From the NCBI GenBank assembly GCA_011503125.2, contig WWBZ02000051.1:620001-684000 (forward strand): DNA of 64,000 bases, read 5' to 3'. The notes under the pieces are model-generated. The model did no database searches. It saw only the letters and a program-made list of their open reading frames with translations, and was not told the origin of the DNA. Positions 15,171-52,324 of the stretch are shown here, piece by piece. How positions within the stretch are numbered: the stretch's first letter is position 1; every line of letters begins with the position of its first letter. The DNA is from Botryosphaeria dothidea (taxonomy: Eukaryota > Ascomycota > Dothideomycetes > Botryosphaeriales > Botryosphaeriaceae). The translations under genes were made by a program, and so were the position numbers.

Positions 15171-16615
15171 TGTGACTGATGAAGAGGCGGCGCGCGAACG
15201 CGGTTGAAGGGCTGAGATGTTTACGCTCTGGCTCTCGGTCGTGCTCGATGCGGTGGAAAATCCTAGCTCCGCCCCGAACCGCTGAATCCGTGCCATCCTG
15301 GTGGCTTGGTTGCCGCGACGCGTCAAGAGATCGGAATTTGACTTGCTGTGCGAGGGCTTTGCGCGACGTCGACGTTGGAATGAAGAACGAAGTGTTGAAG
15401 CCGGCGATACAGGGTGCAGAGTGTGCAGGGTGAAGCGCATGTCCAGCGCGATGTGTTGTGCTTGCAAGGGACAAACAATACAAACCCAGGGCTTGGCGCT
15501 GTCGGCTACGCTTTTCACATGGCAGGAACGTCACAACCAGCACGGTGCTCCACAATTACAGGATACGATAGTGAGTAGATGGATATCTAGATTCTAAGAA
15601 ACAACAAAAATCTGCCCGCCATCTGCGCCAACCATGGTTGCTCGTGAAAACATCACCTCTCAACATTTTGAGGCTCAAACGTCATCATAAACGAGCAATC
15701 AGGAAGCTGCTAACGCTCGACCAATGCCGTGGAGATAATTTACTCCGGAACGGACCAAAGAAAATGCCGGGCAGAAATTGCTGGCAGATTACCGATACTG
15801 TAGTTTCCATGTCAGCGGAAGTTCGACAAGATGCCAATGCCGAGAAGGTGAGATGGGTGTGTCCTCAGTGATCTTGGTGTATAAAGGGTAATCATTCCCG
15901 AAGGATCAGATACTATCTAGGCGTGATATGTTTTTTAATCATCGGACAGGGGGATGTGCTTGTGATTGAAACAAGCGAAAATTCGGCTTACCTTACTGCG
16001 GCCGCTGCAAGTGCGGTTGAGCAGCCATAATTCTTCCCATTAGCAGCAGTAGGTGCGTGCCTGAAGGAGCCTACACGTATCTATGCAAGTCAGCGAGAAT
16101 TCGACCAAATGCTTGAGCGAGAGTGCGCGTGTGATGGGTGTCAGAATATGTAAGAATTGAATATCATCGAACCTACGCCGTTAAGAGTCGCTGGCGGGCG
16201 CCTCCGGTCGCAGGCATCAATCGCAAATTACCTCATCATTCGAGAAGACGTGGAAAAAGTGTAGAGAGAAACGTACCTTTGCCGCAGCTGCAGCGAGTTG
16301 GGGGCGCGAGCGACGCGCAGGAAAAGTTTGAAAAATAAGAAGTTCTCGGGGTTGGCGGCGCACAAAAGTCGCGAGGTGCGCCGAGACCGGCTATTCCCGA
16401 TCGGGTGTGGCTCGCACACAACCAAAATCATCGGTAAGCGAGCACTCTCTCGAGATAGCGAGCACCGCGTGGATTTCGACCTCCCCAACTAACGACAACA
16501 GCAGCACCACCGACCCCGTAGCACAGTACGTTGCCCAACGCCGCCGCGCAGTCCAGCTCATCTTTACTCCCTCGTTCGCTCGCTCACATTCCCTCGCACA
16601 GGCAAATCAGCCGCA
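15171..16615. other. Divergent promoter region of nup53 and rpl14
   Basis: A 1.4 kb spacer between two divergent gene starts. The last 150 bp before the eL14 start are pyrimidine-rich, typical of strongly expressed fungal ribosomal protein genes. A short frame near 15638-15871 has no recognisable motif. No RNA gene seen. Confidence 0.5.
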
Positions 16616-27965: not shown

Positions 27966-30664
27966 ATGGGAGAATCCAAAGTGCCTCGGCAGGACAAGAA
28001 AGAGGTGTTGGCGCAAGAGGCCGCAAAGCGCATTCTGAATGATATTCGAGGGAAAGGGCAATCGCAGCTTTCAGTTGAAAATTATTCTCCGCCAGAAACA
28101 GTCGGAGACGCTAAAGATGATGGTGCCAGAAAGGTCTCAAACTTCAAAGAAGGGGCTGTAACGGAGGGCACTCACACCAAAGTCTACCGAGAGGCAACTG
28201 CTAGCAGGAAAAACCATGCCGTTCCGGCAGCCACGGGTACCCAGGCACTTCCAACTCGTGCGAAGAATCCGAGAAGAGTTGATGTCCTTCCTGAGCAAAA
28301 GAAATCGCCCCTGTCCAGGCTTGAACAAGCCTTCGACAACCTCAGTGTCAGCAATACAGATGCTCAAGTTTCTCAGTCTGCCCTCACGACAGAATCAATA
28401 GCGACCACGCCTCTCACACGCACGATTGACTCAAGGGATCGAAGAGGGCGTTCCATGGCCCTCCACGGGCATGGAAGACGATCGCAAGGCACAAACACGC
28501 CAGAATCCGACGCAAGCAGTGGCCTCCAAGACATGATATCGGCACCTCAATCAATTTCGTCCGCGAAGAGACAGGAAGTTCCTCTAACGAAGCATCTCGA
28601 AGCGCGGGAGAACTTCACTGAGTCGTCCAGTAATGAAACGTCCGGAAAGAGCAACTCCAATATTTCTATGCCTGTGGTTGAGGGTATACATCTTGATACA
28701 CCCTCCCGGGGAGAACGATCAATAACATGCGGTCCCAACGTCCAAGCCTGGTTATCATTTGATGAAAGCACCTCTGATCTGTCCACCGCTGCGTCTGAAA
28801 TTTTCTCTAACAGTAAGCCCTTCCCTTTTAAAATTTGCCGAGCCGTCTTTTGCTGACATACACAGCGTTGGTGGGCAACCTAAAAGAGCAGAACCTGAAC
28901 TTTGTCGACATCATCAACAATGTGGGCTCCAGTTGGCAAAAGCTATCTCCGGAAGAGCGTCAGGCTTTCGAACAACAGGCATCAAACACTTCAAAGGCAA
29001 TGCAGGAGACGGCCGACGCAGCCGCAGCCGAGCTTGATACGGGCAATGTGTCCGACACGGCAAAGAAGGAGATTGTCGACAGGCTCATGGGATATTTCTA
29101 CAGGCTGTTCGGCAACAAACTCCAGGAATCTTCCGACTGCCTGACTGGGATTGGAAGCTCCTGGGGAAGTTCCCAATCCGTTTGCACTTCCATAGATCTG
29201 GAGCCTTCAGAGGGCAATGATGGCTCCCGCCGCGGCCAGACCACCCAAGGTCGGGACAGAAGTCACCAGCTGTTTCCACAATCAGGAAGTGCCGCACAGT
29301 CGAGGAAGAGAAATGGCAGAAGTAGTCAAGAAGGAGACTCCGATTTTGAAGAAGATGAAAGTGATGGCAAGCGTCGCAAACCGTCATCAGGGAAGCCAGA
29401 TGGCTTGTCTCATATACCAAGACGATTCGCTTGCCCTTTCACCAAGCGGTTTCGTGACCAACCTCCAAAGACTTCGGCTTGTATCTGCAAAGGGTTCAGC
29501 ACCGCTCATCGAGTCAAGGAGCACCTTTACCGCGTTCATTTACAACACAGATACACATGTTTTCGATGCTACGAGAAGTTTGATAACGATACACAGCTTA
29601 AAGCGCACGCCAGAGCAGCGGAAATTTGTGAAGCAGTTGACGAACCGCCGGATGAGCAAGAGCTGGATGCTGAACAGGAGAAGCAGCTGAAGAGCGAGAA
29701 GCTTGCAAGAGATGCTTCCGAGGAAAATAAGTGGGCTTTCATCTACCTGGTCTGTTTCCGAGATGCAGCTGAAGCCGACGTGCCATCTCCTTGTGAGTTT
29801 TATCATTTATGCACTGTCTTCCGTCAACGGTTGTTCAATATTCTAATCGGGCTGAAACTCTCAGATTTCGAACATCCCACGCAAAGGTCACCCTCAGCTC
29901 AGGACTTTGAAATGTATGAGCAGTATCAAAGAGAAAGGCTGCCGCAGATCGTGCGACAGGAGCTTGAACGTACAGTGAAGAGGGGCCCACAGCTGGATCG
30001 GGTTACGGAAATCCTTGAGAGCCATCTTCCTGAAACCGTCCGTTTGGCGCTTACAAGGGTTTCTGAGGGATACCGAATCAAAAGGACTGGATCATCGTCG
30101 AGCGAAGCTGGCAGTCAAAGCCGCCACACACGCTCCATCTCCGACGCACAAACCTCTGCTTCTCGCATGGATGGATTGCGGCCCGGTGAGCCCTGGACGC
30201 ATGCAACATTGGCTGACCATGCCGGAGGCTTTTCATCTGGCTGGGTTGGGCCTTTCAATTTTCTGACGGTGCCGCCATCTGATACCGCTTACAGCTCTTT
30301 GGACGATACCTATACCATGAATTCAGCCTCGACATCTGAATGGTATCTGCCCATACACAATGACGATTCTACATATGCCTCTGGATCAATGCTGCAGAAT
30401 CGTGTCCGCGGCACGCAAACGCCGCCTGAGAGCAGTATCAGTCCGGTGTATCCCAGATTCGATCCAACCTTGCAACAGCAGGCGCCATACTCCCAAAGGA
30501 ATCTCGGTGGCGCGTCCGTTACCGACAGTGCTCAAGGTCGCTGGAATGTGAACCGTGCACAGGCAACGTATCTGAATGAACGTGACTACCGAGGTGTAGG
30601 AGACCAGTTCGACCTGCCGGATGCTTATAATTCTTCTTATCGTACACGATTTCCGGGTCTTTGA
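27966..30664 (+). CDS. HMG-box-like plus fungal C2H2-module protein
   Basis: Likely nuclear protein of 857 aa from exons 27966-28812, 28866-29792 and 29865-30664. The first 270 residues are Ser/Thr-rich and disordered-looking. About 275-330 resembles an HMG box that has lost its first helix: EIFSNTLVGNLKEQNLNFVD, then VGSSWQKLSPEERQAFEQQA. A conserved segment EIVDRLMGYFYRLFGNKLQE follows at about 351. At about 469-540 lies a fungal C2H2-type module: RFACPFTKR, a Cys pair, [16 protein letters not shown], then CFRCYEKF and AHARAAEIC. This module recurs in many uncharacterised Pezizomycotina proteins. The last intron (72 bp) falls in a Tyr codon after SP and stays in frame if retained. The C-terminal 300 residues are low-complexity. 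The next gene shares the module and this intron position, so the two are paralogous over that part. Confidence 0.8.
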
Positions 30665-31121
30665 AAGTTCTGGTCAATGATTCAAGGATCTGGAATGTTC
30701 GGCTTGCAGTGCTGGACACAGCTGATTTTTCATTGACACGATATCATGTAAATGGGACGATGTATCTCGGAGGTACCGACGCCTCTGTCAATTCTTATCC
30801 GTTTTCTGGAGTCCGCTATCGGTATCTACCCACTGCACAGACGATTGTCAGGCTGTGTTGTTGTGGCGCAGCTGCATGTTCGCTTTTTGATTGGTTATAT
30901 CCTGTAGAGGTCAGCCGCCCTGCGGGGATCCCTGCACGGTGGCGTTGCGCGTGTCGATTCATGCGCAGTCGCGCGCGAACAGCCTTGTGGGAGAGTTATT
31001 TCACCCCACAGCGCCCGCCATCTTCTCTATCTATCAATCGTCTCATCATCTTGTGCTTCCATCACGCTTTGTATCACCGTGATCGCAACCCGCAGACTGA
31101 ACGACTACTCACCTCATCAGC
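30665..31121. other. Spacer between the two paralogous regulator genes
   Basis: 457 bp between two co-directional genes; it must contain the first gene's 3' UTR and the second gene's promoter. No other feature seen. Confidence 0.5.
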
Positions 31122-33937
31122 ATGGAGTCAGTCGCAGCAAGTATAGTGAACAGGCAGGCTCCAGATGGAAACCAGAAACGAGATGATCAGCCAGAAGTTG
31201 CAGGTGAGAACCTTCCAACGCTCACCTGCTTACGCCATCAGATGAGCCCTAACTTGAGCTACACAGACGCTTTTTCACTTCCACCTCCATATCTGCAACC
31301 GCGCTCTCCCGCGCGTGCGTTTGAGACTACGGGTCCACCTCCAGATTCGCAAGGTTGGCCTCCCACACATGCATTCGACACGTCTGGTCAAATAGCTCCA
31401 CCAGGAATGAAACCCAGAGTGACTGCAACGCTGTGGGAAGAAGAGGGAACACTATGTTTCCAGGTAGAAGCCAAAGGAGTTTCCGTTGCTCGCCGCGAAG
31501 ATAATCATTTCATCAACGGGAATAAACTCCTGAACGTTGCTGGTATGACCCGAACCCGCCGTGACGGTATCTTGAAGAGCGAAAAGACTAGACATGTGGT
31601 CAAGATTGGACCGATGCACCTAAAAGGCGTATGGTAAGTATTTGAATCTTAGCATTATCTTTGGGATTTCTGACATGCAAAGGATACCGTTCGAGCGTGC
31701 ACTCGACTTGGCAAACAAGGATGCAATTACAGGAATGCTATATCCTTTGTTTGTGCATGATATTGGAGCTCTACTCTATCACCCTAATAACCAACGTGGC
31801 TCTGTTGGAACTCGTCATGCAACCGCTGCACTTGACCGCCTTCGATACATTAAGGCGCCGGTAGCCTCACAAGCACCCCCATCGCACCAACACCATATGT
31901 TGAGCAGCCCTTCGATCTCCGCCCAGGCCCTGCAGTCATTGGATTCAAACGCTACTCTGTCTCAAAAGCACCCGCCAACACCACTCACGAGCCGCTCTAG
32001 CATCATTGGCCTGGGAAATGGTAGTAGTTCGTATCAAAGGGGTAGCATTGATATCTCGAATGCTAAAGAAAACCAGTCTTCGGCCAATGTCGGATCGAAG
32101 AACTCTGGCAAAGCTGAGCAGCACCATAATGAGACCGGGCGGAGCTCACTCGAACACGCGAAGCCAGATGATGACCTCAAACCTTCGGTACCCACGGAAA
32201 AGGTACAGAAAGTCGAACTCGATGGGACCTTGGTCTATGTTACCGCAAGGACCGAGATCGTCAACCGGCTGATGGACACCTTCTACGAACTTTTCGGTGA
32301 GACGATGCAAGAATCGTGTGGTAGTGAATCTGAGGATAGTGGCTCCGAGGGGTGTTCCTCGTCTGCTGCCACTTCAAGCAAAGACGTCGATGCACCGCTG
32401 AGGACGCTCACTGAGGAGATAGAAATACCCGCGGGTAGGATATCTTCAGAGCCGACACTTCGTGCTATCTCTTCACCGGACTCGACTTATAGAGGATTTG
32501 AAAGACCCCAGGTCGAGATAGAAAGAATCTCCATGAACCAAAGAGGTGGCAACGGAAAAGCTCCGGCGCGAAAGAACAACCCTGTGAGAGGCGTGTGTGC
32601 GCAATCCTCTTTAATCAAAAGTAGAACAGTGGCGGGCAAGCGGAGAAAAGACAGCAGTGATGCGGATCACTCTGACGAAGAAGATCGAGATGATCGCAGA
32701 AAACAGCCACGACGATCATCAAAAAAGAATCCGGAACTACTCAACTCTCTCAATAGATTCGCCTGTCCGTTCGTCAAAAGACGTCCACAGCGGCCTCCAA
32801 AGTGTGCAGCCTGCGTTTACCCGGGTTTCGGCACTACGCACCGCGTGAAGGAACACTTGTATAGGAATCATATCCGGCAACGCAAAATCAGATGTCCGAG
32901 GTGCTACGAGTCCTTTGATGATGATTCTCTTCTCAGAGCGCACGTGACAGCCACGGAGAGGTGTCCCGAGGGTGAGGAGCCTCCACAAGATGAAGAGTTG
33001 AGCCAGGAGCAGGAAAGGAGCCTGAGGAGCAAAAGAAGACTGGGGAGGGAAGGCTCGGAAGAGGTGAGATGGCGGCAAATCTTCCAGATCTGCTTCCCGG
33101 AAGTTCTCGAAGTAGACATATCTTCCCCTTGTAAGTGAAGCCTTTCGCGAATTCATCAAGCGAAGCTAATATTATCGTACAGACTGCGAGTGGCAGCAAT
33201 CACCAGGCTCAGGAGGATTCGAACACTTTGAACAATTTCAACGCCGAATGTTGCCAGAACTGGTGCGGCAAGCATTGGATGAGGCAGTACCAACGGCCCC
33301 GCAGCTTGCACAGCTGGAGGAGAGCGTGAGGAGCCAGCTTGTTGACATCATACGGACTTGCCAGGATCAAGTGTGTGAACAATACCGCATGTCAACAAAT
33401 TCTCCAAGAGATCGAGCCGGACCGAACGATCTGGCGACCGACGTTTGCAATAATACTCTTCAGGACTATCGTGACGAAGTTCCGGCGTTCGAACACTCTA
33501 CAAGCTTCAGCACGAATGCCGACCCTCCCAGGAATCTGGTGCCTGGCGCTCTTTGCCCAATCCCACAAGATGAAGAAACCGCAGCGTTCCTGGACTTAAA
33601 TATCTTCACGTCCAACCATCCGCCATCTCAATCTCATGACTCTGACTCAGGCTACGGTACTACAGGAGCCGAGCTCGAGAAAACTCGAGAATTCCTTTGG
33701 TTATCAGAAAACAGCTACGCAATGCTGCAAGAAGAAGGTACTTCGGACTGGCAAACTTCATTCGGACTGCTGCCTCATGATCTTGGCGAGGAGCCGTCTG
33801 GCCTCAACGGATTTCAATCTACAGTGCAGAATGAGTTTCACCTAGATGATCTTGGAGTGGGAGAGCATTTCGATTCCGCCGATCTCGACGGAGGTCACTC
33901 CAGCGTGGCGCCATTCCCGAACCACCGGAAAGACTAA
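31122..33937 (+). CDS. StuA-type APSES domain fused to fungal C2H2 module
   Basis: Predicted regulator of 883 aa from exons 31122-31203, 31267-31633, 31683-33130 and 33183-33937 (introns 63, 49, 52 bp). Residues about 77-187 form a complete StuA-like APSES DNA-binding domain: [85 protein letters not shown] and [19 protein letters not shown]. The following stretch [23 protein letters not shown] recalls the region after APSES in StuA. Instead of ending like StuA, the protein continues with the module seen in the upstream gene: [20 protein letters not shown] (about 341), then [33 protein letters not shown] and AHVTATERC (about 508-575), and [13 protein letters not shown]. No stop or frameshift separates the two parts. 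The canonical StuA of the genome is presumably elsewhere. Targets are unknown. Confidence 0.85.
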
Positions 33938-37709: not shown

Positions 37710-39818
37710 ATGCTCGTACCGCTTGAGCCTATAGCGCCAGAAAAAAGGAAATTTCTGTTTAGAAATCCAGAAAAGTCAGCAACATCAGGTTTGCCTTGGC
37801 CATGCAGTAGTTTTCCCCAATTTTCACAGGCTCAGCAGCTTTCTTCCAGAGGTGTAGCGACCTTATGTGAGGTCTGCAAAGGCATCACGTTGAGCGCCTT
37901 GGAAAGCCCACATGGATACACTTATACCGGCAAGACTTTGGAAAGATCAGCTGGCCTTCCAAATGCCTGTCGTCTTTGTGCTCTTATTTTGAGCACTCTC
38001 AAAGATGCGTACGTGGACATGGTTCAAGATGTCAATCTTGACGTTAAAAAGAGTGTTGATCAGGCAGAGAAGGCTTTCTCAGAGATCCTCAATGCGAACG
38101 ATCAGTGTGTTGTACTTTTCGCATTCGCAGATTCAGACATAGCTCTCGTACCCGAACCACCATTCCTAAAGACTGAAGGGGGCTTGCCACCTATTCTAAC
38201 TTTATACAATCCATCTGGTAAGATAGGCACACAATAGTAAGAGTTGCCTAAATTTTTAACTTAGATAGGGTCACCATCTACTGGCTCAACGGAGTATTTT
38301 GTGCCGTGCTCTACGACAATCGAAGCTGTAACCTTAGTGGCACATTGGCTATCAGAATGTTTCGCAACCCACTCGAAGTGCCCCAAAACGATTGAATCTC
38401 CGCTCCCTAAAAGACTTCTCGATGTTGGATTCCTAGGTGATGCAGATGATTCGGCACGCCTCTGGCTGAACCCTTACTTAAACAACGAGGATGACAGCTA
38501 CAGAGGCCCGTATGGGCGATATGTTGCCTTGACTTACTGCTGGGGGACCCGAGCTTTTACCACCCTTACACCTGAAAGGCAGGCCAGCATGATTCACGGA
38601 ATCGATATGGCAAATATTCCATCAACCATCCGTGATGCTATTCGCATCACTCGCTTACTCGGAATCCGTTATCTCTGGGTCGATTCGTTGTGTATCTTCC
38701 AGGGAACTAGCGCCCAGGTTCGTGAGGACTGGACGGAACAATCCCAGCAAATGGCCAACGTATATAAGAACGCTACTCTTACTATCGGTTCGGACACTGC
38801 GGAGGACGCTTATCAAGGGTTTCAGCACGCTGAAAGCCCTGTTTACAAGTCTTTCGCTCTCCTCCCGTCAACATGGTCATCATTAAAAACAAACAGCCCT
38901 ATGTTCGTCGGTCCGGATGGTGCTCTAGCTGGAGTCCCCTTCCCAAAACTGCATACTCGCGGATGGACATTCCAGGAGCGGCTATTGTCGACCCGTTATA
39001 TCACACTCGGTTCAGATGGAATGTTCTGGGAATGCTTACATGGGAGGCAATATGATAATGCCTGCTTATGGCATTCTTATGAGGAGCTTTCCCCGAAGTT
39101 GCCCAGGTCACCTACCTTCCAGGATTGGCACCTTCTTATTAAGGAATATTCAAAAAAGCAGCTCACTAAGCCAGAGGATAGGCTGGTGGCGCTTGCTGGC
39201 CTGCGTGCTCACTTCTTACATTTGCGCGGAGTCCAAGACACGGACCTTGCTGGGCTTTGGGGAAGCAATCTTTCCTGGGACTTACTTTGGGAGTCCTTAG
39301 GATTCGGATGCAAAACCAACTTGATGAGCATGGCGCCTTCCTGGTCGTGGATATCTACCTGCCACCCTGTTTCCTGGTCAATCGCTCACTGTTACCAGGC
39401 AGAGCACGTCTGTCATTCCGGGTGCGTGTCCGTACTGGATGCTACTGCAAAAGGCCCTTCGATTGGCCTCACATCGAAAATTGAAGGCAGAATAAAGCTG
39501 AGTGGGTTGGTGAGCAGGGTAAAGTCTATTGCTGGCGATCGCAGAAACATGGTGATAGTGGACGAGCTGGGAAACACGGTTCATGCGGCGTGTGACGAAG
39601 GGAGGCCTTACTTGACAAAGCTCCGTTTGATCCCGGAGGCTGATAAAGTCGCCAGCAGTATATTCTGTGTCCAGTTTCACAGCAACCCCGGATGCATCGG
39701 TCTCTTAGTGGAATCAACTGATAAAACTTGTACTGAGTTTAGACGACTTGGGATCTATCGGACTAGGGATGCAATGACATTCAGACCAGAAAAGCCAGTT
39801 GTTGTCGTAGTCGTATAG
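37710..39818 (+). CDS. HET-domain protein (heterokaryon incompatibility type)
   Basis: Intracellular protein of the fungal HET family, whose members act in non-self recognition and regulated cell death. The product is 685 aa from exons 37710-38217 and 38269-39818 (51 bp intron). The N-terminus has a Cys-containing segment, LCEVCKGITL followed by CRLCALIL, common in front of HET domains. The HET domain proper (about 265-420) shows YVALTYCWG, NIPSTIRDAIRITRLLGIRY, LWVDSLCIFQ, REDWTEQSQQMANVYKNATL and TIGSD, then RGWTFQERLLSTRYI. The C-terminal half has the usual GLWGSNLSWDLLW and APSWSWIS motifs. No NACHT, WD or ankyrin repeats are attached. It ends in a run of Val. The gene lies in a sparse, repeat-like neighbourhood typical of variable HET genes. 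The allelic or signalling partner is unknown. Confidence 0.9.
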
Positions 39819-49628: not shown

Positions 49629-49867
49629 TCAGCCAGCCACACCAATGCAGTAGTAATAATCCAACCAGAACGCAGTCCCGCAATCGTCCCCATTCGTCCC
49701 CAGCGCCGTATTCCACTCGACCAACTGCGCCAGCGTAATCCCATTCCTCTCCGCAAACGCGAAGCAATAATCCCCACTCACCGCCCGATCCCACGTATTG
49801 CAATTCGCCGCCTGTCCCTCCTGCACCCACTCCGCCGGCGGTGACCCCGTAGCACTCGGCACGCCGC

Positions 49868-49907
<40 letters not shown>

Positions 49908-52324
49908 AACCGCCGGCGCATCGCCCGACACGCCCACGCAGTACGCCTGGTCCAGCCAGAAGTTATCCACGCAATCGGCGCTAACCGCCGGGTTCCACGC
50001 CAGGAACTGGCTCAAGCTGATGCCCGCGTCCTCCGCGGCGCTGGTGCACGTGTCGCCCTGCACGACGATGTGCCACTCGTCGCAATCCGGCGGCTGGCCC
50101 GTATGCGTCGGGGCGCCCGGCCCCACCTTCGTCGTCGTCGCGGTTTGCGTGCTGGTGACTGCGGTCGGGCCGTCGGACGTGACGGCGGTGCTCGTCGTGG
50201 TCGACGGCCCGTCGCCCCCGCCCGCCACGCCCACGCAGTACGCCGACTCGAGCCAGAAGTTGGCACTGCAGTCGCCGCTGACGGCCGGGTTCCACGCGAG
50301 GAACTGCGCGAGCGAGATGCCGGCGGCGTCGGCGACGCTCTGGCACGAGTCGCCGTCGACGACGACGTGCCAGGCGTCGCAGGTGGCGGGCTGTCCCGTG
50401 TGCGTCGGGCCGGGGGCGGTGGGGCCGGTCGTCGGCGTCGCGGTGGCGGCGGGCGTTGTGGTCGTGGGCGTGTTGTCGGCTTCTTGGTAGTAGGAGCCGC
50501 AGTAGCGGAGGCCGGGCGTGAAGGCGCAGGAGGCGGTGAGGTTGTCGCCGAGGCTGGGGTTCCAGACGCTGAGGTCTTCGAGCGTGACATCGTACATGTA
50601 GGCGGCGAACTCGCAGTTGTTGGACCAGCGCGTGGACGTCAGGTTGTGTTGGTAGTCGTCGCCGGCGAAATAGGCGGCGCAGTCCTCGCGCGTGCCATTG
50701 GAGAGCGGGAGCGGGGTGTAGAGACGGATATACTGCGTCTCGGTGGCGTCGGGTAGAGCGGTGAAGGGCGTGCCGGTGAAGGGAGCCGTGGCCGTGGCCG
50801 TCATGTAGCCCGGGCGGCCGGAGTAAGTGTTGACTGTGTGATTTAGGACATGCTATGTCTTGGGATGAGGCCGTGTTGCTTACTGTCTCCCACTGCTTGC
50901 ACGCAGTAACTCTCATCCGCCAGGAGGTTGGTGCAGTTGGCATTGATTGACGGGTTGAGAAGCACAAAATCTTCAAGAGAGATACCGAATTTGAGCGTCA
51001 AGAGGTTGCAGTAGTCTCCGGGCTGCACATCATACCATCTACCGCAGTTCGCATTTGAACCTGACGCAGCATCTGTGGGTACGGGAGCTGCAGAGGTGGG
51101 CGTAATTGGGGCTAAGTCTGTTGTAGGAGGAGGCACGAACTGCGTTCCAGGTGCAGAGACACAAAGCTGAGTGCCATTCATATTCTCCAGATTGTAGCAG
51201 CCATAGTTGATAATCTCCATGCAATGTCAGACCAGGGTCCGATACATGTAAAGGGTTAAAACTCACCGGATTCCAAGCGTGCAGCTGAGCCTCGGTGATG
51301 TTGGCGGCTTTCGATATGGATTTGCACGTGTCATTGGCCTGAACAGTGACTACCCTGCAAGAGTTTGTGATGCAGAGTTCTCCAGATGTGGGGAAATCAG
51401 CACACCAGGCGGATAGGTCATTATCCGATAGGAGCCAAGCTGTACCGATACCTTGCGAGGTCGAGATACTGTAGCAGTCGTCCGCAGGTTGTATAGCGTA
51501 GGTGTTGCCGGAACAAGGTGTGGGTGTAACCGTGGGCTCTTGCCTTTTAGGACATTCTAGTTCAGTACGTGCAAAAGATACAAATATGATCGAAATTACT
51601 TACGTGTAAAAGCCGAGTGTAGTCGTGGCAAGTGGTTGCCCAATCACATTACAGCTTGATGTCATGGACTCATACAGAGACAGACTGGCAATGACCGGCC
51701 CATCAAAGTATGGTGAACCGGCTTGAAGCTTTAGATTCTTGACCAAGCAGGCGTCACAATCATCGGGCTGCGTTGTATCTGATGGAATGGTATCGAGGTA
51801 ATTGAACATGCTGTCTTCTCGAGTCTCAGCGCATGCTCTGAGCAATATCAGGACGGATACTTACTTCCGGGGTCCTCGAATGCCGCCGCAACTGCCGCGA
51901 CATTATTGCAGTATCGATCACCGTCCTTTAGACAAGTCGATTCAAACAAGTATTGGCAACTTCCAGGGATCATGAGCGCGGATACATTGAGATCAAAAGA
52001 TCCAGGTAGGATCTCTTCTCCACATGCTTCCTGTACGGTGCTTTGGTAGCTTGAAAGTGCAGATTTGCAGTCGGTGGTGCATATCCGAGCCAGTGTTTCG
52101 GGAGTGTAAAAGAAGTTCGGCCGAAGATTTTTTACCACCGGATCACAAGCAACATTGGACAACAATGCCTCAGAGCAGGCATTAGTAAGTGTAGTGGGGA
52201 CAGAGGAATTGTAGAGAAGCTGGATAGCGTGGGTTGTCTGGCTGTAGAAAGACAAAGCCACGAGGGATCGAAGAGTAAAGATTGTCTGAGAGAACGACAG
52301 AGAAAGGAGTGAAAGGAGCTTCAT
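49629..52324 (-). CDS. Secreted multi-LysM protein
   Basis: Predicted extracellular chitin-binding protein of 827 aa from five exons: 51865-52324, 51604-51814, 51267-51543, 50884-51214 and 49629-50833. Introns of 50-60 bp agree in phase. A hydrophobic N-terminus (MKLLSLLSLSF to about residue 35) is a signal sequence. The first 230 residues are a Cys-rich region with no named domain. LysM-type units follow: CRVVTVQANDTCKSISKAAN with AWNP; RWYDVQPGDYCNLLTLKFGI with LNPSI; a degenerate unit with LEDLSVWNPSLG; then WHVVVDGDSCQSVADAAGIS, WHIVVQGDTCTSAAEDAGIS and WDRAVSGDYCFAFAERNGIT. Thr/Pro-rich linkers separate the last three; one is a run of Thr from a GTC repeat. It is divergently paired with the chitinase at 53525. 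LysM proteins can shield or bind chitin; an effector role is an inference. Confidence 0.9.
49870..49908. repeat. (GTC)n microsatellite inside the LysM gene
   Basis: About twelve GTC units on the plus strand, encoding a poly-Thr linker on the minus strand between the last two LysM units. In-frame expansion or contraction would change only linker length. Confidence 0.85.

Follow-up and report, generated by a model that had tools for sequence, protein, structure and literature searches.

Botryosphaeria dothidea is a plant-associated fungus. StuA is a master developmental regulator, and StuA-type APSES proteins govern fungal development as well as virulence in several species. One case of StuA-type virulence control is described in the accessible part of PMC10715145, and KilA-N proteins with ankyrin repeats in that of PMC9605165. 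Fungal dual-specificity factors are tabulated in PMC5415576; the accessible part of this table contains no combination with APSES, and the same part of that paper suggests that such factors spread mostly by duplication and not by new fusions. Homeobox proteins with C-terminal C2H2 fingers, HbxC/E/F, are reported in the available text of PMC7142095, and CsHOX8, a homeobox protein with C2H2 fingers, in that of PMC8406175. A description of an APSES-zinc fusion was not found in the literature searched, in which subscription journals were thinly covered.

A gene that joins these two parts was read in one B. dothidea assembly (contig C47), in a window of 64,000 nucleotides whose numbering is used for the locus below. 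To judge by its sequence, the chimera of an APSES domain and a zinc module in one gene model is real (Table 1). An earlier note on this DNA had proposed a continuous gene model with matching intron phases. This was borne out, as both introns are GT-AG, in phases 2 and 1, and the product has 904 residues. The APSES domain that the note placed at residues 77-187 is present, with a KilA-N match at residues 120-197 (31.1 bits, above the Pfam cut-off of 23.8), but its limits had to be moved to residues 86-208 by alignment with StuA. The module read further on, from RFACPF to CPRCYESF, is found at residues 529-582. Exon 2 alone codes for the remainder of the APSES domain, for the linker and for the complete zinc module, and is stop-free over 482 codons (chance about 2e-10, calculated from base composition). 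In local alignments of the chimera, StuA similarity extends until residue 315 and two zinc-family relatives align from residues 342 and 348, and a third alignment, weaker than these, pairs the chimera with the upstream gene from residue 295 on. The junction lies at about residues 303-342. Since the two halves meet within exon 2, the fusion is independent of any splicing choice.

Table 1. Coordinates in the window of the chimeric gene, its upstream tandem relative and the public gene model.
Feature	Position	Strand	Remarks
Upstream tandem relative, HMG-box-like segment and zinc module as in the chimera	27966..30664	+	857 aa
Exons of upstream tandem gene	27966-28812, 28866-29792, 29865-30664	+	Complete reading frame of its own
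Exons of public model P0001, by mapping	28455-29749, 32077-32295, 32950-33129, 33185-33934	+	
Chimeric APSES / zinc-module gene, stop codon included	31122..33937	+	Gene model; 3 exons, 904 aa
Exon 1: N-terminus, first part of APSES domain	31122..31633	+	Gene model
APSES (KilA-N) domain, residues 86-208, split by intron 1	31377..31794	+	Pfam PF04383, StuA alignment
Intron 1, 49 nt, GT-AG, phase 2	31634..31682	+	Position and phase as KGVW^IPF intron of own StuA
Exon 2, 1,448 nt: rest of APSES domain, StuA-like linker, fusion junction, zinc module	31683..33130	+	
StuA-derived linker, residues 209-302	31795..32076	+	Local alignment with StuA
Junction interval, residues 303-341: StuA similarity fading, zinc-family similarity starting	32077..32193	+	
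Zinc-family conserved helix, residues 358-381	32242..32313	+	
Basic stretch, residues 488-519; might serve as nuclear localisation signal	32632..32727	+	Sequence
Finger 1, C532-C548-H562-H567, long C-C loop	32764..32871	+	Alignment and structure model
Finger 2, C575-C578-H591-C598 (C2HC)	32893..32964	+	Four ligands invariant in alignment
Intron 2, 52 nt, GT-AG, phase 1	33131..33182	+	Upstream gene has intron at equal SP^Y place
Exon 3: helices of the C-terminal part (near residues 660-735, judged from P0223), tail	33183..33937	+	

The public annotation of the locus is different. The public model P0001 (‘GTA08_BOTSDO07540 [Botryosphaeria dothidea]’, 798 aa) runs the upstream gene into the end of the chimera and leaves out positions 29750-32076 and 32296-32949. 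The APSES exons and a zinc core are among the parts left out, and without the APSES exons the architecture is invisible in that record. By tying the upstream gene to the C-terminus, P0001 speaks for a locus of two ordinary neighbours, in which a zinc protein next to part of a duplicated StuA was taken here for one gene. This is barely credible, however, as one stop-free exon of 1,448 nt carries the rest of the APSES domain together with the linker and the complete module, and the two similarities nearly abut in it. Moreover, P0001 needs introns of 2,327 and 654 nt, whereas the four introns modelled in the two genes measure 49, 52, 53 and 72 nt. P0001 is probably a mis-annotation. An assembly break at the locus was disfavoured together with the two-gene reading, because exon 2 holds parts of both halves.

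The APSES half of the chimera derives from a StuA of the Botryosphaeriaceae type. A canonical StuA is retained in the B. dothidea genome on contig C78 and is, by its sequence, the likely StuA orthologue. The chimera and this StuA are identical at 110 of 123 residues of the APSES domain and at 58 of the 106 residues aligned in the linker and beyond (residues 209-314). The KGVW/IPF intron is common to both in position and phase, and the other APSES intron of StuA (RRE^D) is absent in the chimera. StuA similarity ends at residue 315, and therefore the C-terminal half of StuA is missing; neither this half nor the basic tail that is present in the own StuA was found in the chimera. A tree of 45 APSES rows was built with 35 StuA proteins picked from the 222 proteins listed by the homology searches, plus the own StuA. 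Parastagonospora and Capronia were dropped from it, as the start or end of the domain was not found by pattern, and the metagenomic fusion P0122 was omitted. The chimera was placed in a five-row set with the own, the Neofusicoccum, the Macrophomina and one metagenomic StuA (98/82, from a bootstrap that had not settled). Without the other fusions it was again placed in a five-row set (98/86), with the same four StuA as nearest rows. That tree also put it in a two-row set (99/92), with the Neofusicoccum StuA nearest by path; the placement claimed is limited to the five-row set and does not extend to the two-row set.

Over the 123 codons of the APSES domain, the chimera and the own StuA differ at 10 first, 8 second and 68 third codon positions. 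This excess of silent difference indicates constraint at the protein level after much silent change, although part of the constraint measured against StuA is that of the StuA branch itself. The chimera also keeps 90 of the 97 columns that are invariant across 33 StuA proteins (own included). The other 7 columns account for 7 of its 13 substitutions relative to the own StuA (D107E, C121S, T134N, G145T, F180L, E184D and K185A), and the target site of the chimera’s APSES domain could therefore be altered or lost. These substitutions and the drift of the linker would fit a decaying or non-functional chimera that was retained by chance. Such decay is quite unlikely in view of the 904-codon open frame, the canonical splice sites, the retention of all eight zinc ligands and the strong surplus of differences at third codon positions.

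APSES matches in the genome were found at the chimera and on contigs C1, C36, C69 and C78, and none of them lies near another zinc-module place. The C1, C36 and C69 loci look by eye like the ankyrin-type MBF/SBF subgroup. The two Mbp1-like APSES loci, L002 (C36:443274-446474) and L003 (C69:2380709-2383909), are identical over their full 3,201 bases with one of them reverse-complemented, which would be either a recent duplication or assembly redundancy.

The zinc module (residues 530-653) is an atypical C2H2/C2HC module. In 45 aligned sequences, seven of its eight ligands are invariant and H562 is nearly so. The ligand pattern is C-x15-C-x13-H-x4-H and C-x2-C-x12-H-x6-C, followed by a conserved W and P; this spacing is that of the chimera. 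As all eight ligands of the family are kept, the chimera fits the fungal zinc-module family grouped here. In the chimera no Pfam zinc-finger model scored above its cut-off (zf-H2C2_2, 13 versus 40 bits; zf-C2H2_4, 12.6 versus 27). Ankyrin repeats were not found in a Pfam search with E up to 1, which returned KilA-N and the two sub-threshold finger models only. The predicted structure of the module is confident (mean pLDDT 85.2, pTM 0.70), and a search of the PDB gave no significant fold match for it. In the Diplodia protein P0223, a helix preceding the module was predicted at high confidence, as were the two long helices that follow it. DNA binding by the module is putative. With regard to the two DNA-binding classes that define dual-specificity factors, the APSES domain is present and the zinc module is a putative DNA-binding domain.

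By its sequence, the zinc half is related to the HMG-like gene that lies next to it on the upstream side. The HMG_box_2 match in that gene (19.7 bits, E 0.0014) lies below the cut-off of 22.4. Module matches occur at 18 or more places in the B. dothidea genome (27 exon matches), and 1 of the 18 carries an APSES domain. The upstream neighbour is the best module match after the chimera itself, at 52 percent identity. The two tandem genes have the SP^Y intron in common in their gene models, and in both the HRVK-EHLYR stretch of finger 1 is unbroken. In nine other places of the family the match breaks at this stretch, as it would at an intron. A zinc tree was built with 29 of 57 non-APSES module proteins, picked by hand. 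In it the chimera falls in a clade of four rows (99/94), whose other members are the upstream gene, a bromodomain/HMG protein from a metagenome and a protein of Diplodia. The clade holds without long branches (99/95). These three relatives carry HMG-like, bromodomain/HMG-like or RGS N-termini. A sister position to Diplodia P0223 (96/76) was lost without long branches, and only the four-row clade is claimed.

Several other observations were made on this family and on the window. The metagenomic protein P0224, a relative of the upstream tandem gene, has a bromodomain ahead of its HMG-like segment. Like the pair in the window, zinc-module genes lie close together on C18: L015 and L008 (2704558, 2706348), and L011 and L021 (2819050, 2822006). 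L020 (C65:1-2756), one of the module places counted above, belongs to an 11.9-kb contig and is a 99.6 percent copy of L016 (C29:4045667-4048939) over the 2,762 bases compared; C65 is perhaps a redundant contig. The N-terminal part of metagenomic P0225 closely resembles, by eye, the family member L055 (C69:1852562-1855768), and its contig may belong to a fungus closely related to B. dothidea. Within the window, a gene with a HET domain (heterokaryon incompatibility) is located about 4 kb downstream of the chimera (38265-39815, 92 bits). A LysM-domain protein gene lies at 49632-50852 on the minus strand (63.9 bits), and an Rfam match to the snoRNA Afu_514 at 16139-16243, also on the minus strand (65 bits; gathering score 39).

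The earlier note knew of no APSES protein with a C2H2 module of this kind and suggested a search by domain architecture. The search found such fusions in other fungi, and the architecture is not unique. In a profile scan, 12 of the 222 distinct proteins listed by two homology searches (a whole-protein search, with the best 120 of 598 hits, and a fusion-alignment search, with the best 120 of 859) matched both APSES and the module, so that all fusion counts are lower bounds. These at least 12 fusions come from 11 named species in 9 genera and from one metagenome contig, and the records of the other fusions name them only ‘HTH APSES-type’ or hypothetical. PMC5415576 asks of a dual-specificity factor that it occur in at least five genomes, and the named species listed here are more than that. 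Fusions were found in Lophium mytilinum, Cercophora sp., Pseudomassariella vexata, Colletotrichum cereale, Neoarthrinium moseri, Annulohypoxylon moriforme and Seiridium cardinale. Identifiers of the listed fusions include P0002-P0005, P0009, P0010, P0012 and P0121. Some gene models are incomplete, including P0079, P0122 and P0124. Part of finger 1 is missing in Neopestalotiopsis clavispora (P0012), the finger core is missing in Seiridium cupressi, and the APSES part has only 35 residues in C. graminicola; these missing parts may be gene-model errors. The module of the Diaporthe amygdali fusion is divergent (E 1.7e-17). In P0005 of Colletotrichum cereale, a partial module match at residues 4-76 stands ahead of the APSES domain, as if this domain lay between two module pieces or the gene model had been merged. 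The note had looked for support from orthologs in related species. Within Botryosphaeriaceae the searches listed none, the Neofusicoccum and Macrophomina matches being ordinary StuA, and the fusions listed do not share an origin with the chimera where this was tested (Lophium and the Sordariomycetes).

The trees support an origin of the chimera that is independent of the Lophium and Sordariomycete fusions. One clade of the chimera with the Sordariomycete fusions is rejected on the zinc half (p 3.8e-7; 8.1e-5 without long branches) and on the APSES half (p 2.7e-5). One clade of the chimera with Lophium is likewise rejected on zinc (p 3.0e-4) and APSES (p 0.0038). A clade that unites all the fusions is rejected on the APSES and zinc halves (p 6.6e-10 and 4.7e-53, a value so small being rough). 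A single ancestral fusion is thus rejected for the chimera on both halves, and the APSES-zinc fusion therefore would have arisen at least twice, possibly three times. The count depends on Lophium and the Sordariomycetes, whose union is rejected on APSES (p 6.0e-8) and not on zinc (p 0.083; 0.092 without long branches). The Sordariomycete fusions as one clade are rejected on neither half (APSES p 0.115, zinc p 0.60) and may represent one event. These tests were performed on hand-picked rows with several long branches, the chimera included. P0122, for which no anchor was found, was added to the zinc tree that gave p 0.60, and 8 long or uncertain rows were removed in the reduced tree. The APSES half of Diaporthe P0077 stands next to the Cryphonectria StuA (96/91), and placing it in one clade with the Sordariomycete fusions gives p 0.02. 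Its zinc half groups with those fusions (89/48) on a very long branch, and a separate Diaporthe origin is therefore not claimed.

The zinc results for Lophium and the Sordariomycetes, and the union of the Sordariomycete fusions on either half, would also suit a fusion that was ancestral to Pezizomycotina, was lost in most species and had its APSES half replaced later, by gene conversion, with the sequence of the resident StuA, so that the fusions would only seem independent. This history is unlikely. The chimera’s zinc half too rejects the union, which conversion of the APSES half leaves unexplained, and its closest zinc relatives have HMG-like, bromodomain or RGS N-termini instead.

The zinc module is joined to other domains in other proteins. 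A search with the zinc half only listed 58 proteins, and the 57 besides P0001 all carry the module and none an APSES domain; as the other APSES fusions, which carry the module, are not in this list, the 58 are an incomplete sample. A further Pfam domain at E 1e-4 was found in 6 of the 57, namely two homeodomains and one each of bromodomain, RGS, kinase and PHD. P0229 gave a seventh match, to Rtf2, which overlaps with the module. The homeodomain cases (two Ilyonectria proteins) and the bromodomain case are the most trusted, the latter because its N-terminus resembles by eye that of the upstream gene. With RGS, PHD and kinase, separate genes may have been merged in the models. The module also follows HMG-like, bromodomain and homeodomain segments, and perhaps RGS domains.

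These joinings bear on two further readings. The module family could be a promiscuous carrier that repeatedly acquires the N-terminal recognition domains of resident regulators and makes target-diverting competitors. The captures would include the StuA APSES domain at least twice, a homeodomain, an HMG box, a bromodomain and perhaps RGS. This extension is tentative and rather doubtful. The N-terminal domain differs even among the chimera’s closest relatives, and if the reading is true, domain capture would be a standing mechanism of regulatory rewiring. The same partners (homeodomain, bromodomain and HMG-like segment, with RGS, kinase and PHD as possible ones) would suit an APSES domain that is no longer regulatory and acts as bait or adaptor in a zinc family that collects regulatory domains. 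This reading is highly unlikely: the other 51 of the 57 sampled members have no further Pfam domain at E 1e-4, the RGS, PHD and kinase cases are maybe merged models, and the APSES domain of the chimera is well conserved.

The preferred reading, to which a probability of about 60 percent is assigned, is that of a chimeric transcription factor that competes with StuA or diverts it. The StuA gene would have been duplicated, and its 5′ part, with the APSES domain and the linker, joined within the disordered linker to a copy of a zinc-module gene; a relative of the zinc donor would still adjoin the chimera. The protein would enter the nucleus through its basic stretch, and its APSES domain would bind StuA-type sites. 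As the zinc module and the helices take the place of the StuA tail in the output half, the chimera might then compete with StuA, or bring the module’s partners or own DNA site to StuA-regulated promoters. A binder of StuA sites with a replaced output half is the most likely role.

A protein with the DNA reader of StuA and a replaced output half offers a natural test of network rewiring. Recurrent joining of APSES and zinc parts may be a fungal way of rewiring gene control. Because the fusion recurs, this question is testable by dating the fusions and by comparing their targets with those of intact StuA in the same genome. In comparison with known systems, the chimera would be a dual-domain fungal regulator of recurrent and independent, but not unique, design. 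It resembles StuA, Asm1, Efg1 and Sok2 in the APSES domain, in one intron and in a StuA-like linker, and differs from them in having the zinc module and helices where StuA has its C-terminal half and basic tail. It shares the KilA-N/APSES fold with the MBF/SBF proteins Mbp1, Swi4 and Swi6, and the four solved structures matched by its APSES sequence are of Mbp1 type (1bm8, 1mb1, 1l3g and 4ux5), whereas the ankyrin repeats of those proteins were not found in it. HbxC/E/F and CsHOX8, as described in the available parts of their sources, are alike in pairing a DNA-binding domain with C2H2 fingers, a likeness by description; the Ilyonectria homeodomain protein P0227 carries the zinc module of the chimera itself. 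The other fungal fusions have an APSES domain followed by the same module, and on both halves the Lophium and Sordariomycete sets are of separate origin from the chimera. Finally, the chimera is similar to the dual-specificity factors of PMC5415576, as far as the accessible part defines them, in that a single protein combines domains of two classes, each a putative DNA binder. It differs in that the APSES-zinc fusion appears to have arisen at least twice, and such repeated fusion to one kind of zinc module would be a counter-example to the suggestion in that part of the paper that these factors spread mostly by duplication over new fusion.
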